Assembly (NCBI GenBank): GCA_021234155.1
Contig: JAJEKV010000005.1
Location: 16,662,089-16,726,088 of the forward strand
Direction of reading: 5' to 3'
DNA length: 64,000 nucleotides
Origin: Isoetes taiwanensis
Taxonomy: Eukaryota; Streptophyta; Lycopodiopsida; Isoetales; Isoetaceae
Shown here piece after piece: positions 2,569 through 8,590 of this stretch. Numbering within the stretch: position 1 is the stretch's first letter; the number at the start of each line of letters is the position of its first letter. The notes beneath the pieces are model-generated. The model worked only from the letters and a program-made list of their open reading frames with translations, was not told the DNA's origin and made no database searches. Made by a program: the position numbers and the translations under genes.

Positions 2569-2589
2569 CACAAGGCATCCTAAAATTTA

Positions 2590-3200
2590 ACTGCCATAAT
2601 TAACCACTAAGGAACCACTATACATGTGGTTATTTATGCAAAAAATAATAATCTTAATGGAAACCACATATTATAGTGGTTTTATAAGTAGGATGTGGTT
2701 TTCATGCTAGTTTTGTTGCAACATGGTTTATTTAAATTGATAATGGTTTCTAGCATGGTTTTCTTGTTAGTTTATTGATACAACATCGGTTATTAAGTTG
2801 GTAATGGTTTATGGTATGGTTTTTCAATGTTAGATGATGATTCTCCACATTGGTTTTCTTTTGTAGCATGGTTTACTAGAATATATGTAGTTTGGAAGGT
2901 GGTTTTTACTGCCAATTTAAATACCTAGTGGTTATTCATGTTGGTTTTCTATTGCCAAAATTGTCTATTAAAAATCGACCACATTGGTTTTTTTATCTAG
3001 TATGGTTTATTAAAATTAATGTAGTTTACAAGGTGGTTTTTAGTGCCAATATAAATATCTAGTAGTTATTCATGTTGTTTTTCTATTGCAGAATTGTCTA
3101 CTAACAATCGAATATGATTTGTAGCATGGGTTTCCGTACCATTTTAATTTGCGTGGTGGTTATTTATAATTCCCAACTAAAAGGGTGGTTATTCATAGTG
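2590..3200. repeat. Left subterminal repeat block of the CACTA-like element
   Basis: The block is packed with degenerate tggtt/atggttt motifs. It contains a clear tandem duplication of 134 bp (2851-2984 and 2985-3118); each copy has tggttt, gtggtttttA-tgccaat and a cat/tgttgttttctattg segment. Such arrays are expected as transposase-binding subterminal repeats in CACTA elements. The matching right-hand block lies at 7640-8095 in inverted orientation. Confidence 0.6.
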
Positions 3201-3699
3201 CTTAATCTTTAACTTCAATGGATATTATACTTTCATGATGTAGATTAAATTATAACTTAAATATATGCTACGAAATGCATGCTTATATTTAAGACTACCG
3301 GAAATACTGAATATTGTAGTGTAGTTACCCTAAGACCCTAGAAATTTTGATGGAGCATAATGTCGTACAATTTAGCTCTTTAAAACAAGGGAATGTGATT
3401 TAAAAAAAAAAAACATCGAGATAAAGCAAGAATTAGAAAAGGACAAAATAAAAAGCTTTTAGAATATAGTACGCTTACTACATATTCTAAGCGAGGTGCA
3501 CCCTAGACTACCACGATCGTCGGATTAAATCGATCCTCTGACCCGGATGCGTATGTTGGGGCCTCTGGGCACCTCTCGTTTCACTTATAGTCAATTATGA
3601 TTGGAGCCTTTATGATTTTGAAATATGAAATCTGATTTAGCCTAAGGTTTTGATGGAATATTGAATCTCTATCTGGCTTTGCCTAAGATTTTAGAATAT

Positions 3700-3785
3700 G
3701 AAATCACGGGGGCTCGAACCTCTACCAAAATAACTCAATGTTCTTATAAGACTACTTTAACCAATGTACCCGGTGAGCTAATGTG
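3700..3785 (-). mobile_element. tRNA-derived SINE-like head
   Basis: On the minus strand TAGCTCACCGG (3770-3780) fits an RNA polymerase III box A. GGTTCGAGCCC (3710-3720) fits box B exactly. The spacing of 49 bases, with TTGGTTAAAG after box A, is SINE-like. The body would continue toward about 3480, and I could not find a tail or a target duplication. It may instead be a chance tRNA-like match inside the CACTA-like element. Confidence 0.4.
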
Positions 3786-3789
3786 ATTA

Positions 3790-4290
3790 TTTTTTATCTT
3801 GAATCTATGTTTTTTTTATAACAACCCATTCAATTGTTTTAGGGATATATGGTCTATGGTTTTGAGGAATTGTTATTTTTTACATCTATATCAAATCCCC
3901 CACGAAACCCCTGTTATTTTGCTACATATTAGTTCTTTGGATCGAAACCATGCCTTCTTAAGGACATAAGTGGACTAAAGGAATAAAAGCGAAAAAGAGA
4001 TATGTTTGTTGGCCTTAAGGCCATTAAAGATATCTTTACCTTTCGAATTTAGAACAGATATTTCTAAGATCTTTTCCAAAAGCAAAATGGCATTTAGACT
4101 CTAGCTTCCTTTCACATTCATCTAGGGGTTTAATTGTTCATACATGCTAACTATAACACATGACGTTTAAGTTACTAATTAATGAAGGGTTTAGTCGAAG
4201 ATTTACGTTCTGAACCTTGTTACGGTGGCACCAAGTCGGCCCCGTACTATTTTATGGTGGAGGGCATTTTAGCAAATATATAATATACTG
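3790..4290. other. Non-coding interior of the CACTA-like element
   Basis: AT-rich sequence without an open reading frame of note and without a motif I recognise. It separates the SINE-like head from the nested Mutator-like element. Confidence 0.5.
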
Positions 4291-4302
4291 GGTATTTTAA
4301 CA

Positions 4303-5301
4303 AGGAAAATTTTAAAAATGCCTTGTAATTTGGGGTAATTGCCAAAATGCCCTTGTATATTCAAATATTGTTAATTTGCCCCTACGACCGAGAATAGCTG
4401 TGGGAACAAGGCTCTTGGGTATTTCGGCATCAATTTTGCTGCATCGCCAATTCAGATCACTATTATAGCATTTTCTACACTCCATCAATGATTCGAAATC
4501 ATTTTGGCACATTTTCTTGAATTTCGGGGGTGTAAAAAAGTCGGTTACGTTTTACATTGAACAATTATGCATGCATCTCTCTCTCTCTCTTTCTACATTT
4601 TTTCTTAATAATCAGGTGGACAAGGTGGACAAATTTGGCGGTAAGAAGCTTGACTACGGTGGCAAGATGGCTATGGATAGTCACCATATTTGCTCATTTT
4701 TGTGTTTTTTGAAAATCTATTGCAAAGCTTTATTGAATCATGCTACAGATCCTTAAAAGCCCGAGCTATAATGGACATAATCGATTTTTTCTTTTGCTTT
4801 GGGAGTCTCATGCTAGAAGCTTTGGCTAGAGGCATGATCTACAACAAAAAATACATTTGATGTGCAACAATATTTAGTCTCTTTGTTTTGGAGCAGAACT
4901 AGTTGATCATTGGGGCAATGAAGAAAATTTTCCAGCATTTGTTGTGCTTCTTAGGAGTGGCTAGTCTAAGATGGAAAAATGACGCCATATCTACTTTGTT
5001 TTAAAAAGCTGGGAGTGTCTTGAACAAAACAAATCCAAAGCAATAGCCATCGGAGCTATGGCGATCCTACTAGAGTGATGAACGAAGAAGAAGAAGGGAA
5101 AATGGCGGAGGATGCATGAAGGGGAAATGGTGGAGAATGATTTGGCTAGCACTTCCGTGCGAGTAGTTTTGCATGCAAGGCCATAGCTCGGGTAAGAGAA
5201 ACCGGAATTGTGGTGTAAAATAGGGGCATTTTGACAAATATTAGAAATAAAAGGGCATTTTGACAAATAATTAAAAATAGAAGGGCATCTTTAAAATTTT
5301 C
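4303..5301. mobile_element. Mutator-like (MULE) non-autonomous element
   Basis: The 999-bp element is flanked by a perfect 10-bp target duplication, tattttaaca, at 4293-4302 and 5302-5311. Its ends form long terminal inverted repeats of about 90 bp. Left, ggaaaattttaaaaatgcc leads into two ccaaaatgccc-type blocks; the right end shows the same reversed (gggcattttgacaaat, gggcatctttaaaattttc). Long inverted repeats with 9-11 bp duplications define Mutator-like elements. The interior (about 4400-5200) has no recognisable transposase. A short open segment at 4611-4700, next to an AG acceptor-like site, could be captured host DNA, but I cannot identify it. Confidence 0.85.
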
Positions 5302-5311
5302 TATTTTAACA

Positions 5312-6041
5312 ATTATAGGCAGCGTATGACAAATTCCGGGGAACACTTGCAGATTACCGGCTAGAATTTAAAATTTCCGTTTGTCCAAAATTTTTAACAG
5401 GAAGTGGTTCCTTTTGAAAACGATAAATACAGGAATATTACCTGAAACCGTATTTTCCGATTTCATCTATGTATATCCAGAAATATTTTTTATAGGTTAC
5501 TAAAAGTACTATAAGTTTAATTAGGGTAGCTTAGGGTTTCGTTTCAACAAAATTTTTTTTCTCTACGAAATTCCTATCCTGCTGTCGCCGCCTCTGATCA
5601 TTTTGCCGCCCTCTGCTGTATTCTCCATCAATTTCGGCTGCTACTCCATTAGTTTCGGCTGTTTTTCTCCCCAAAAATGCTATCGATCACTCTTACTTGG
5701 CTAATCTTTCAATTTCGTGGAAGAGGAAGGAAGAAGAGAAGGAAGAAAAAGGCTAGTTCTATCTGTGCTATTGAAAGAGGAGATGAAAACGAAACAGAGG
5801 TCTGATCCATTCACGAGAAAAATGCTTGGATTAAGTAAGACTTTGATATGTATTGTACTGTGCAAAAAACCCTGTTTTCAACAAAATACTTTCTGATTCG
5901 GATTTCAGATCTTTTGTAGGGTTGACACATACAACAGGGCAAGCAGAGAAGGGCGAAAGGTATATAGCAGATCCATTTTTGTAGAAGGACGAAAGAGGCA
6001 AAGGTGAATTCTATTTTCCATTTCATTCTATTTGCAAATCT
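5312..6041. other. Interior of CACTA-like element, possible captured 5' UTR
   Basis: Between 5540 and 5800 the sequence looks like a plant 5' UTR (gggtttcgtttcaac, C/T-rich stretches, atcaatttcggctg repeated at 5627 and 5648). It precedes the transporter fragment at 6042. No open frame covers it. Confidence 0.3.
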
Positions 6042-6235
6042 GTGGTACAAGGTCTACTTCTCATTAACGAATCAGAAAAACTTCATTCAATGAATCTGCT
6101 TATGTATATGGCTCCCATAGCTGTGGCAATGCTGCTTCCTGCTTCCCTGATCTTAGAAATAAATGTTTTTGCCATAGCTTTTGAAGATGCAAGTGAGAAT
6201 CCATGGTTTCTCATGCAAGGACCTCCATTGAAAAC
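6042..6235 (+). pseudogene. Nucleotide-sugar / triose-phosphate-translocator family fragment (internal part)
   Basis: The reading frame gives [19 protein letters not shown], then [18 protein letters not shown] and a short tail to about NPWFL. This matches the region around transmembrane helices 7-8 of plant sugar-phosphate/nucleotide-sugar translocators (the At3g11320/At5g05820 type). The similarity stops near 6235; from there the frame runs on to 6395 through sequence I do not recognise. The next helix of the family, which should follow, is missing. A further piece of the same family is found at 7120-7200, after an unrelated fragment. This is a captured or scrambled fragment, not a gene. Confidence 0.7.
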
Positions 6236-6399
6236 TGATACGCAGCAAATGGCTGTTGGCATCTACAGGAAAGGAGGGCATCAAAGCTGCCAAACAATAA
6301 ATTTTGATCCGTGGATGTCAGAAGGATGTGCACTTTCGATTTTTGTTGGTGCCACCCCACCTTTCAACTTTGTGTTTGTACGTCTGCCATTCTGATCCT

Positions 6400-6800
6400 T
6401 TTATGCTTTACATTGCATTCTGCATGATGCCACTGCTCTAATATGCACGAACGGACCTAACCCATGTCCAAAGTCATTGCATGCAACTGCAGCACCATCT
6501 TCTATCCTCTTCACACCAAAAGTGACGGCAAAAGCAAGTATAAAAGGTAAATTTGCTACGGCCCTCAAGGACAAATTCATTTGTCTTGTTCTTCCCTTGT
6601 TCTTGTAAACATATGCTGTTGTGCGTATCTTAGGGGATGTTACTCTGTTGAACACAGTCTGTCCATTTGGACGGCTGGTGAAGGACTAGTCTACGTGAAT
6701 TTTTTTTGTCTCTAACAGAGCATCAATCCTATAAATTATTCCATCTTCTCATATCAGATTGAGTTTTAGTTTCAAAAGATCTCTAGTCTTGAGTTCTGGC
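6400..6800. other. Unassigned interior of the CACTA-like element
   Basis: A minus-strand open stretch of 84 codons (6401-6655) has a protein-like composition but no family I recognise. The plus strand is broken. It may be a third captured fragment. Confidence 0.25.
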
Positions 6801-6801
6801 A

Positions 6802-7110
6802 ATGAGGAAAGCAGCCCTCTTTGTCATATGCATTTATTTAATGTTATCGGGTGCTTTTTGCACATTTGCAGAAGATATGTATGGTCATAGGCATGATGTA
6901 TACTTGTGGCCCATTACTGCATATGTTAGCCAAGGATCTAAACCCCTTGCCATTTCAAAAAGTTTCAAATTTGTGCTGGATATGAATTCTAATTCCTGCA
7001 CTACCTTAAGCCACAGCCCGGACAGTAGCTAACTTGCATGGATGCAGTTACAACTGAAAATTGATGAGTCTTATCAGCTACAAGTGCCTTCTCCTAACGA
7101 TGGAAGAACA
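6802..7110 (+). pseudogene. Beta-hexosaminidase N-terminal fragment
   Basis: The fragment starts with an ATG and a signal peptide (MRKAALFVICIYLMLSGAFC). It continues with LWPITAYVSQGSKPLAISK, the N-terminal motif of plant beta-hexosaminidases (LWP-P--VS-GS--L-(I/V)SK). A stop occurs at 7030-7032. After an acceptor-like cag at 7045-7047 the sequence LKIDESYQLQVPSP matches the family's DESY-L-VPSP segment. The catalytic GH20 barrel is absent. It is an inactive piece within the CACTA-like element, joined directly to transporter sequence downstream. Confidence 0.65.
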
Positions 7111-7117
7111 ACATTAT

Positions 7118-7200
7118 TTCTATTCTAATCTTCAGAAACCCTGTCACAGTGATTGGAATGGCAGGATTTGGCATTACAATTGTTGGTGTTATTAACTCTT
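7118..7200 (+). pseudogene. Nucleotide-sugar transporter fragment, C-terminal helix
   Basis: The frame reads IISILIFRNPVTVIGMAGFG followed by ITIVGV. This is the hallmark IFRNPVTVTGMLGY-T--GV segment at the C-terminus of the translocator family also seen at 6042-6235. The hexosaminidase piece ends within about 10 bases upstream, so the junction between the two sources is sharp. Confidence 0.7.
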
Positions 7201-7499
7201 TTGTTACACTTTTTTTTTTGTTTTCTAATTCAATATTTTGCTTCTGTCTTTCAATCTGGGTACTAATTCTCTCATTCTCATGAAACAGACCTTACTGCAA
7301 GAAGCAGATCTTACTGCATGAAACTTATTTCAAAGCAACTGTTGCATATTTCTGGAAATAAATTTATATTCTTTAAGAGTTTTGGAAATGGTTGGGGTTC
7401 AAATCCCTTGCTCCCTAATTTTGTGAAGGCACTACAGTCCATAAGAAACCATTTGCAATTAGTCTACTAGCCTAAACTTGGAATGCTTCAAACAACATA

Positions 7500-7645
7500 A
7501 CGTTTTCTGGTTATCATTATTATTTTTTGGTTATCATTATTGGTTAAGGTATTAATTTTCGTTATCATTATTGGTTAATAAATCGCACTTGGTTATCATT
7601 ATTGGTTTACTAGTTATCATTATTAGTTTATTATTGGTTTATAGA
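7500..7645. repeat. Short tandem repeat ggttatcattattggtt
   Basis: Six or so imperfect copies of a 17-30 bp unit built on ggttatcattattggtt run from 7508 to 7640. The block leads into the AACCA-rich right subterminal region. Confidence 0.6.
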
Positions 7646-8095
7646 TGACCATAACAAAACCATGCATATTTGGAACAAACAAATACACCTAAGATTAACA
7701 ATAATTCTAACACATTGCAAACCATGTGTTTACCATGGCATGACTAGTGCATTTACCATGATATTTAGTCATGTCAGTTTACCACAATGATGAACCACAT
7801 TATAGAATCACATGAATAAACACCATATTAAACCACATCCACAACCTTCATGTTATACCACATGGACAAACCATACACTTAATATGGTATAATATACCAC
7901 ATTCATTTTATCAACATGCAAAACCACTTTGACAAACTCTCTGAAGAAGCCCATCCATCTAACCATCCTAAAAACCTCGAAGAGAACCCATTAATTTAGC
8001 CACATATAGTTTTTAATGATATCAACCCACAAACATGCATTGGTTTTGTAGAATGGTTTTATAGTCATAACCATGGGAAAAACCATGTAGAGTTT
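7640..8095. repeat. Right subterminal repeat block of the CACTA-like element
   Basis: Dense aaccat/accacat motifs form the inverted counterpart of the tggtt-rich block at 2590-3200. The block ends 8 bases before the right terminal repeat GGATGCCTTGTG. Confidence 0.6.
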
Positions 8096-8114
8096 TAATT
8101 TTGGATGCCTTGTG

Positions 8115-8590
8115 TGTGGGGCATTCCCAAGACACTGGCATAAATGGGTAGAAGCGACTACTCATAAACATCTAGGCGGTTTTGCCCGGTTGGTTAAGGG
8201 CATGTCGGTTAAGGCGATTAGTTGATATCGAGGCGGAGTCTCGAGTTGAGGAGGAGTCTCCATGGGTGCCTATATGCATGGGTAATATGCAAAGACTTGG
8301 TAATCATTGTGACATGGTATGACATAGACATGGTATAGCCTTGGATGCTCGAGGACGAGCATAGTTCTAGTGGGAATAGACATGGTATAGCCTTGGATGC
8401 TCGAGGACGAGCATAGTTCTAGTGGGAGGCGCATGCTTGGACCCATGGTAGAATTTGCTTTCGAGTATTGAACCTTGAATGTGCGTACGGGGGCGTTCAG
8501 AGAGACCGGCATAAATGGGTAGAAGCGACTACTCATAAACGTCTAGACGGTTTTGCCCAGTTAGTTAAGGGCATGTCGGTTAGGAACGTT
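8115..8590. repeat. Host repeat: two direct copies plus a 52-bp tandem pair
   Basis: The segment ggcataaatgggtagaagcg and its next ~55 bases occur at 8137 and 8508 (offset 371). Between them, a 52-bp unit (atagacatggtatagcc...ctagtggga) is repeated in tandem at about 8326-8377 and 8378-8427. Each unit holds the small inverted repeat atgctcgaggacgagcat. The 8461-8583 copy gives the uninterrupted form of the site where the CACTA-like element inserted. The ctcgaggacgag segment resembles the sequence after pol in some gypsy elements, but I cannot confirm that. Confidence 0.7.

Follow-up and report, generated by a model that had tools for sequence, protein, structure and literature searches.

A probable Pack-TYPE transposon with CACTA-like structure and nested pieces of two host genes in Isoetes taiwanensis

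What kind of mobile unit occupies positions 2569-8114 of a 64,000-nucleotide stretch of the Isoetes taiwanensis genome (contig JAJEKV010000005.1, here C1056), and how did pieces of two host genes come to lie inside it? The window, meaning that whole stretch, belongs to a genome of 1.66 Gb, and every comparison was made within that same genome. The unit is very probably a non-autonomous Pack-TYPE transposon with terminal inverted repeats (TIRs), a CACTA-like structure and DNA captured from two host genes. Its ends, its 3-bp target-site duplication, empty sites, sister copies with duplications of their own, the two parental genes and three common junctions were observed directly. Pack-TYPE elements are a known kind of element, and the window copy is a clear example of them with an instructive nested double capture.

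Ends, insertion site and copies of the element

The element is a TIR transposon of 5,546 bp. The left TIR (CACAAGGCATCC) was located at 2569-2580 on the plus strand and has a 25-bp end that is common in the genome. The right TIR, the complement of CACAAGGCATCC, was located at 8103-8114 on the minus strand, with a 28-bp end that is also common. When the window was searched with CACAAGGCAYCC and at most one mismatch, only these two places matched (0.47 matches expected). TGT was read from the flanks on both sides, at 2566-2568 and 8115-8117. The earlier note had described a 5.5-kb unit bounded by one end and its complement and flanked by a TGT duplication, and both points were confirmed.

Joining the two flanks gives back an empty site. 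After removal of one TGT, the joined flanks aligned at 107 of 123 columns (87%) to an element-free copy of the flanking repeat at 8461-8582 on the plus strand, which agrees with the empty-site relative previously placed near 8461-8583. The joined 124 bp were also searched in the genome, with scoring of the best 40 of 1069 candidates. Of the 42 matches listed, 40 were full length and uninterrupted with 95-97% identity, and the other two were partial. These many full-length empty copies indicate that the element sits in a common repeat. Just right of the element, a 52-bp unit occurs twice at 8324-8427 with 100% identity.

The genome was searched for the element ends, as the earlier note had proposed, and many other copies were found. 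The 25-bp 5' end gave 103 matches with at most two mismatches and the 28-bp 3' end gave 344 with at most three, while a broader end variant, CACAAGGCACCCNAAAATTTAAC, gave 711 with at most two; the controls, reversed patterns for the 5' and 3' ends, gave 0 in each case. Pairing by eye, which used nearly all of the 103 5' places and about 100 of the 344 3' places, yielded at least 36 same-strand end pairs spanning 1.8 to 20 kb, and one 28-kb pair was left uncounted. The members compared had mainly their terminal parts in common and differed in their interiors. Target-site duplications matched in six of the seven elements with both flanks read: TGT in the window, TAT in L039, ATA in L040, AAA in L045, TTT in L060 and AAT in L061. 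Another insertion with the same ends and a different interior also carries its own 3-bp duplication. The published matches listed for the end-sequence strings were unrelated animal and medical papers, and we claim no absence from print on that basis.

The chimera of the two gene pieces was found at no fewer than three different sites, on C1056 (window), C907 and C1025, which differ in their flanks and duplications. Two sister insertions, on C907 (L039) and C1025 (L040), therefore hold the same chimera as the window, each within its own 3-bp duplication. The window copy differed from L039 at 145 of 5,504 ungapped aligned sites and from L040 at 213 of 4,813 aligned sites. In a further sister element, on C445, an insert of 5.4 kb (L066, C445:450700-456500) occupies the site that corresponds to window 3263; the insert is probably another transposable element.

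Captured gene pieces and their junctions

Two transporter pieces were identified on the plus strand. Piece 1 (6036-6211) corresponds to parent frame positions 676-851 and is 98% identical to C1074:4555383-4555558, and piece 2 (7113-7190) corresponds to positions 976-1053, is 97% identical to C1074:4555181-4555258 and reaches frame position 1060 in sister copies. The parent on C1074 (L043) is an open frame of 365 codons (1,095 bp) that matches PF03151, the triose-phosphate transporter (TPT) family, over nearly the whole profile (E 1.6e-47), with weaker Pfam matches to UAA and EamA transporters. The TPT family includes nucleotide-sugar transporters. A second transporter locus on C1036 is 99.5% like the C1074 frame. 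The pieces had been ascribed to a nucleotide-sugar transporter at 6042-6235 and 7118-7200; a transporter parent was indeed found, while the limits required revision. Pieces of the same transporter gene were also found in L020, L027 and L029, where each match starts at frame position 332; this suggests a second, independent capture or a mosaic pseudogene.

Between the two frame pieces, 124 bp that are open-frame sequence in the parent are missing from the element, and hexosaminidase DNA lies in their place, inside the transporter piece. Its first block (6222-7025, plus strand) comprises the upstream region and the first part of exon 1 with the ATG at 6802, and is 88% identical, with gaps, to C959:334692-335570. 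Its second block (7023-7118, plus strand) comprises the end of intron 1 and exon 2, follows a 211-bp deletion and is 97% identical to C959:335779-335874. The captured DNA reaches about 580 bp upstream of this ATG. In the putative parent on C959 (L042), whose exon and intron limits were taken from the sequence and splice-like sites, the exon-1 frame matched PF14845 at 1e-4, which is under the curated Pfam threshold, and the GH20 catalytic profile PF00728 matched further downstream at 1.4e-9. Searched against the PDB, the N-terminal hexosaminidase piece had just weak unrelated matches (best E 0.12), and the short captured pieces searched by themselves in Pfam fell below the cut-off, so the gene assignment rests on the parents. 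The beta-hexosaminidase N-terminus formerly placed at 6802-7110 thus keeps its identity through the C959 parent and becomes a larger piece, 6222-7118. A second locus, L044 (C1084:3603500-3607500), is 97.5% identical to the hexosaminidase parent, but in the stretch read the match sets in within the final part of exon 1 and covers neither the beginning of that exon nor the upstream DNA.

The loss of most of intron 1 between the two hexosaminidase blocks is what would be seen if copies of spliced messenger RNA had been taken up. However, the last bases of intron 1 and the region upstream of the ATG were kept, and the deletion begins within exon 1. At the corresponding place the transporter parent reads as one open frame, hence its gap is lost coding sequence and not an intron. 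Uptake of spliced messengers was rejected because intron end and upstream DNA are present, and we give it practically no chance. Since intron and upstream sequence were retained, the capture evidently happened at the DNA level.

Three junctions define the chimera. A 10-nt filler (6212-6221, plus strand) separates transporter from hexosaminidase DNA, is the same in four copies and was absent from both strands of the transporter frame and of L042. At the junction inside the hexosaminidase DNA, CAG is common to both sides, and at the hexosaminidase-to-transporter junction ATT is common to both sides; each is a 3-bp microhomology, a length that can occur by chance. All three junctions are identical in the window, L039, L040 and L041, which indicates that the chimera formed once. 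The alignment to parental genes also bears on whether the pieces could be co-linear with one intact locus. They were not, as the transporter derives from C1074/C1036 and the hexosaminidase from C959, and a single co-linear source locus was rejected.

In favour of a new chimeric gene kept by selection, the window transporter piece falls in a 136-codon open frame and the hexosaminidase start codon in a 79-codon open stretch (6793-7029). Against it, the frames are broken in the sister copies: in L039 a stop interrupts the transporter piece and an insertion disrupts the frame of the hexosaminidase piece, and L040 and L041 are both deleted in part of the latter. In the window itself, the exon 1 part is followed by a stop that stems from intron sequence. 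A functional chimeric gene was rejected on the broken frames of the sister copies and is very improbable. We saw no sign of protein-coding constraint in the cargo as read from its sequence, and any putative effect of the cargo would act via transcripts or small RNAs.

A further insertion of about 1.3 kb is common to L040 and L041, where it lies within the hexosaminidase DNA that the C1025/C335 copy carries. In L040 it spans positions 3927-5262 (1.34 kb), has imperfect inverted ends and a 9-bp duplication, TGATGCCAC, read in that copy, and is Mutator-like in form.

Superfamily placement and the remaining interior

The terminal and subterminal regions are common to family members. The left one (2569-3219, plus strand) contains TGGTTT blocks and a 134-bp tandem duplication at 2845-3111, and the right one (7490-8114, plus strand) contains AAACCA blocks. 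Relative to a first-order Markov model, TGGTTT occurred 14 times in the left 651 bp against 1.2 expected and AAACCA once against 0.2, while in the right 625 bp AAACCA occurred six times against 0.7 and TGGTTT four times against 0.5. Blocks in both orientations at both ends mean that the orientation is biased and not exclusive. The claim of inverted subterminal repeat blocks therefore holds for the blocks, which are above expectation, and is softened to a bias for their inversion.

Whether the family belongs to CACTA was judged against published descriptions, as far as the cited passages go. The 3-bp duplications, seen in six of the seven elements, agree with 3 bp given for CACTA (PMC8978399, PMC10741241, PMC4938662), as opposed to 5 nt in PMC8903248, and the short terminal and subterminal repeats agree as well. 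The terminal motif of CACTA elements is given as CACTA or CACTG (PMC10741241) or as CACTA (PMC4938662). CACAA was read in the window and in nearly all listed 5' ends of the family, with few exceptions (CATAA, CGCAA, TATAA); the search patterns themselves held CACAA, and more distant ends would escape them.

The coding evidence was sought by tblastn with three Transposase_21-type proteins at E of 0.01 or less, which gave no match inside the window element or inside 11 member loci, L041 and L046-L049 being partial. The transporter protein, used as a control, gave matches in the window, L039, L040 and L041. The sole hit was a match of 39 residues at L039:10-126, in the left flank outside the C907 sister copy. 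A Pfam scan of 20 selected open frames (about 100 codons or more) of the four long members L046-L049 revealed no transposase; what it did bring up was zf-RVT in L049 and two weak hits that stayed under the cut-off. The 5.4-kb stretch on C445 was considered as a transposase region and rejected, being an insertion without a match to the three transposase proteins. Transposase_21 is abundant in the genome, with 167 matches from the best 150 of 2311 candidates, and none of the listed places falls between family ends paired by eye.

Ends of the form CACAAGGCA(T/C)CC, unlike CACTA or CACTG, and the lack of Transposase_21-type matches inside the tested members would both suit another TIR superfamily with 3-bp duplications and a transposase of its own. 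Conversely, 5'-CAC...GTG-3' ends, AT-rich 3-bp duplications and short terminal and subterminal repeats correspond to CACTA as the papers describe it in the passages cited. For most PIF/Harbinger elements the duplication is given as TTA or TAA (PMC8903248, in the part cited), and none of the six duplications listed above is either of them. Another superfamily is accordingly an improbable assignment. The earlier designation as CACTA-like is supported by most of the structure and qualified by the CACAA ends and by the members examined, in which no transposase was found; on its sequence features the element appears CACTA-like and is unproven as a member of CACTA.

Three other interior regions were distinguished. 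A single unit of a tandem repeat with a period of about 440 bp (3475-3930) is present in the window and C907 (L039) copies and has no counterpart there in L040 and L041 (C1025 and C335) and in at least three other members (e.g., C1018, C54, C919). The same repeat forms multi-unit arrays at C907:45.16 Mb, C952:5.92 Mb, C963:21.98 Mb and elsewhere. An internal stretch at 3957-5319 (plus strand), with GGGCATTTTRRCAAAT-type repeats near 4261-4353 and 5221-5301, is common to several other family members. Passenger DNA of no assigned origin (5379-6030, plus strand) was found, among the matches listed (best 40 of 4697 candidates), only in the four chimera copies.

Origin of the nested capture and its meaning

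TIRs with a target-site duplication, host fragments with identifiable parents, multiple insertions of the unit and a window in which three Transposase_21-type proteins found no match over its whole length together describe a Pack-TYPE element. DNA repair would first have brought a stretch of about 385 bp of the transporter gene into the element. This stretch would later have been broken, and the gap filled with hexosaminidase DNA by template switching, leaving the filler and microhomology at a cost of 124 bp of transporter. Alternatively, both genes may have been joined in one multi-switch repair, and one event and two cannot be told apart. Once complete, the chimera would have been mobilised as cargo, with a transposase from another place in the genome acting in trans. 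The filler and microhomology, which resemble those reported in part of PMC8277862 for animal Pack-TIRs, suggest break repair with template switching. The initial proposal of exon capture and rearrangement as in Pack-type elements thus stands for capture, rearrangement and type, with genomic DNA taken rather than exons as units.

The published Pack-CACTA model, in the cited part of PMC8903248, is tandem insertion, in which elements on either side of gene DNA are later moved as one. A numerous family whose compared members are alike mainly at their ends would accord with it, and it could account for the entry of a first DNA piece. By itself it leaves the nested hexosaminidase, the 124-bp replacement, the 10-nt filler and the 3-bp microhomology unaccounted for, and no terminal-repeat copy with at most one mismatch was present between the two ends of the window element. 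As the whole explanation, tandem insertion with joint mobilisation is unlikely.

Several observations weigh against a Pack-TYPE element of CACTA-like structure built by internal repair. The flanks of L062 have no matching 3-bp duplication. L041 lacks the left end, and its right flank is identical to that of L040, so the two were counted as one insertion (allele, duplication or assembly copy). The CACAA ends depart from the CACTA/CACTG motif. The genome search with the captured pieces revealed no intermediate with an unbroken transporter piece, and the two-step order is for this reason something we infer. An autonomous partner was not found either, so that the superfamily and mobilisation in trans are argued from structure. 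The interior of L045, the sole other interior searched, recurs in other members, on C1084 and C1060, and also elsewhere, and the genome search with it identified no captured parent gene; repeated gene capture by the family is thus not demonstrated.

Comparison with known systems, within the cited passages, places the element among gene-capturing transposons. Like Pack-CACTA and other Pack-TYPE elements (PMC8903248), it is non-autonomous, has TIRs and duplications, holds DNA from more than one host locus and combines conserved ends with variable interiors; unlike them, it ends in CACAA rather than CACTACAA, and its second gene piece is nested in the first and joined to it by filler and microhomology, an arrangement that tandem insertion alone would not produce. 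Tgm-Express1 of soybean (PMC1947982) is a CACTA element of 5.7 kb that likewise contains several host gene fragments made of exon and intron parts. However, it contains five gene fragments, sits in an intron of a flower-colour gene and has exons spliced into transcripts, whereas the window element contains two genes, sits in a repeat and is known here from genomic sequence. The animal gap-filling Pack-TIRs (PMC8277862) share microhomology (their median is 2 bp), short de novo insertions at breakpoints and breakpoints inside the element, and differ in that the window element is of plant type with a nested double capture. Chenopodium CACTA elements (PMC8978399) also contain gene pieces and tandem-repeat DNA; the window element differs in being non-autonomous and in having one monomer of about 440 bp rather than an array.

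Gene capture by DNA transposons reshuffles coding and regulatory DNA in plants, and its mechanism is not settled. In the window element, the breakpoints are clean, both parental loci are in the same genome and match at about 97% in coding parts, and the sister copies help to put the events in order. For the second capture at least, the nested layout favours repair of a break within the element over tandem insertion. More tentatively, and with the odds rather against it, the CACAAGGCA(T/C)CC ends may mark a large family distinct from the CACTA/CACTG groups, whose non-autonomous members would capture host DNA by internal break repair and template switching, in nested fashion, and then spread the captures. 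If this were true, CACTA-type elements would have two ways of capturing genes, internal break repair as well as tandem insertion. The element is therefore a useful test case for gene capture, although one that will not surprise specialists.

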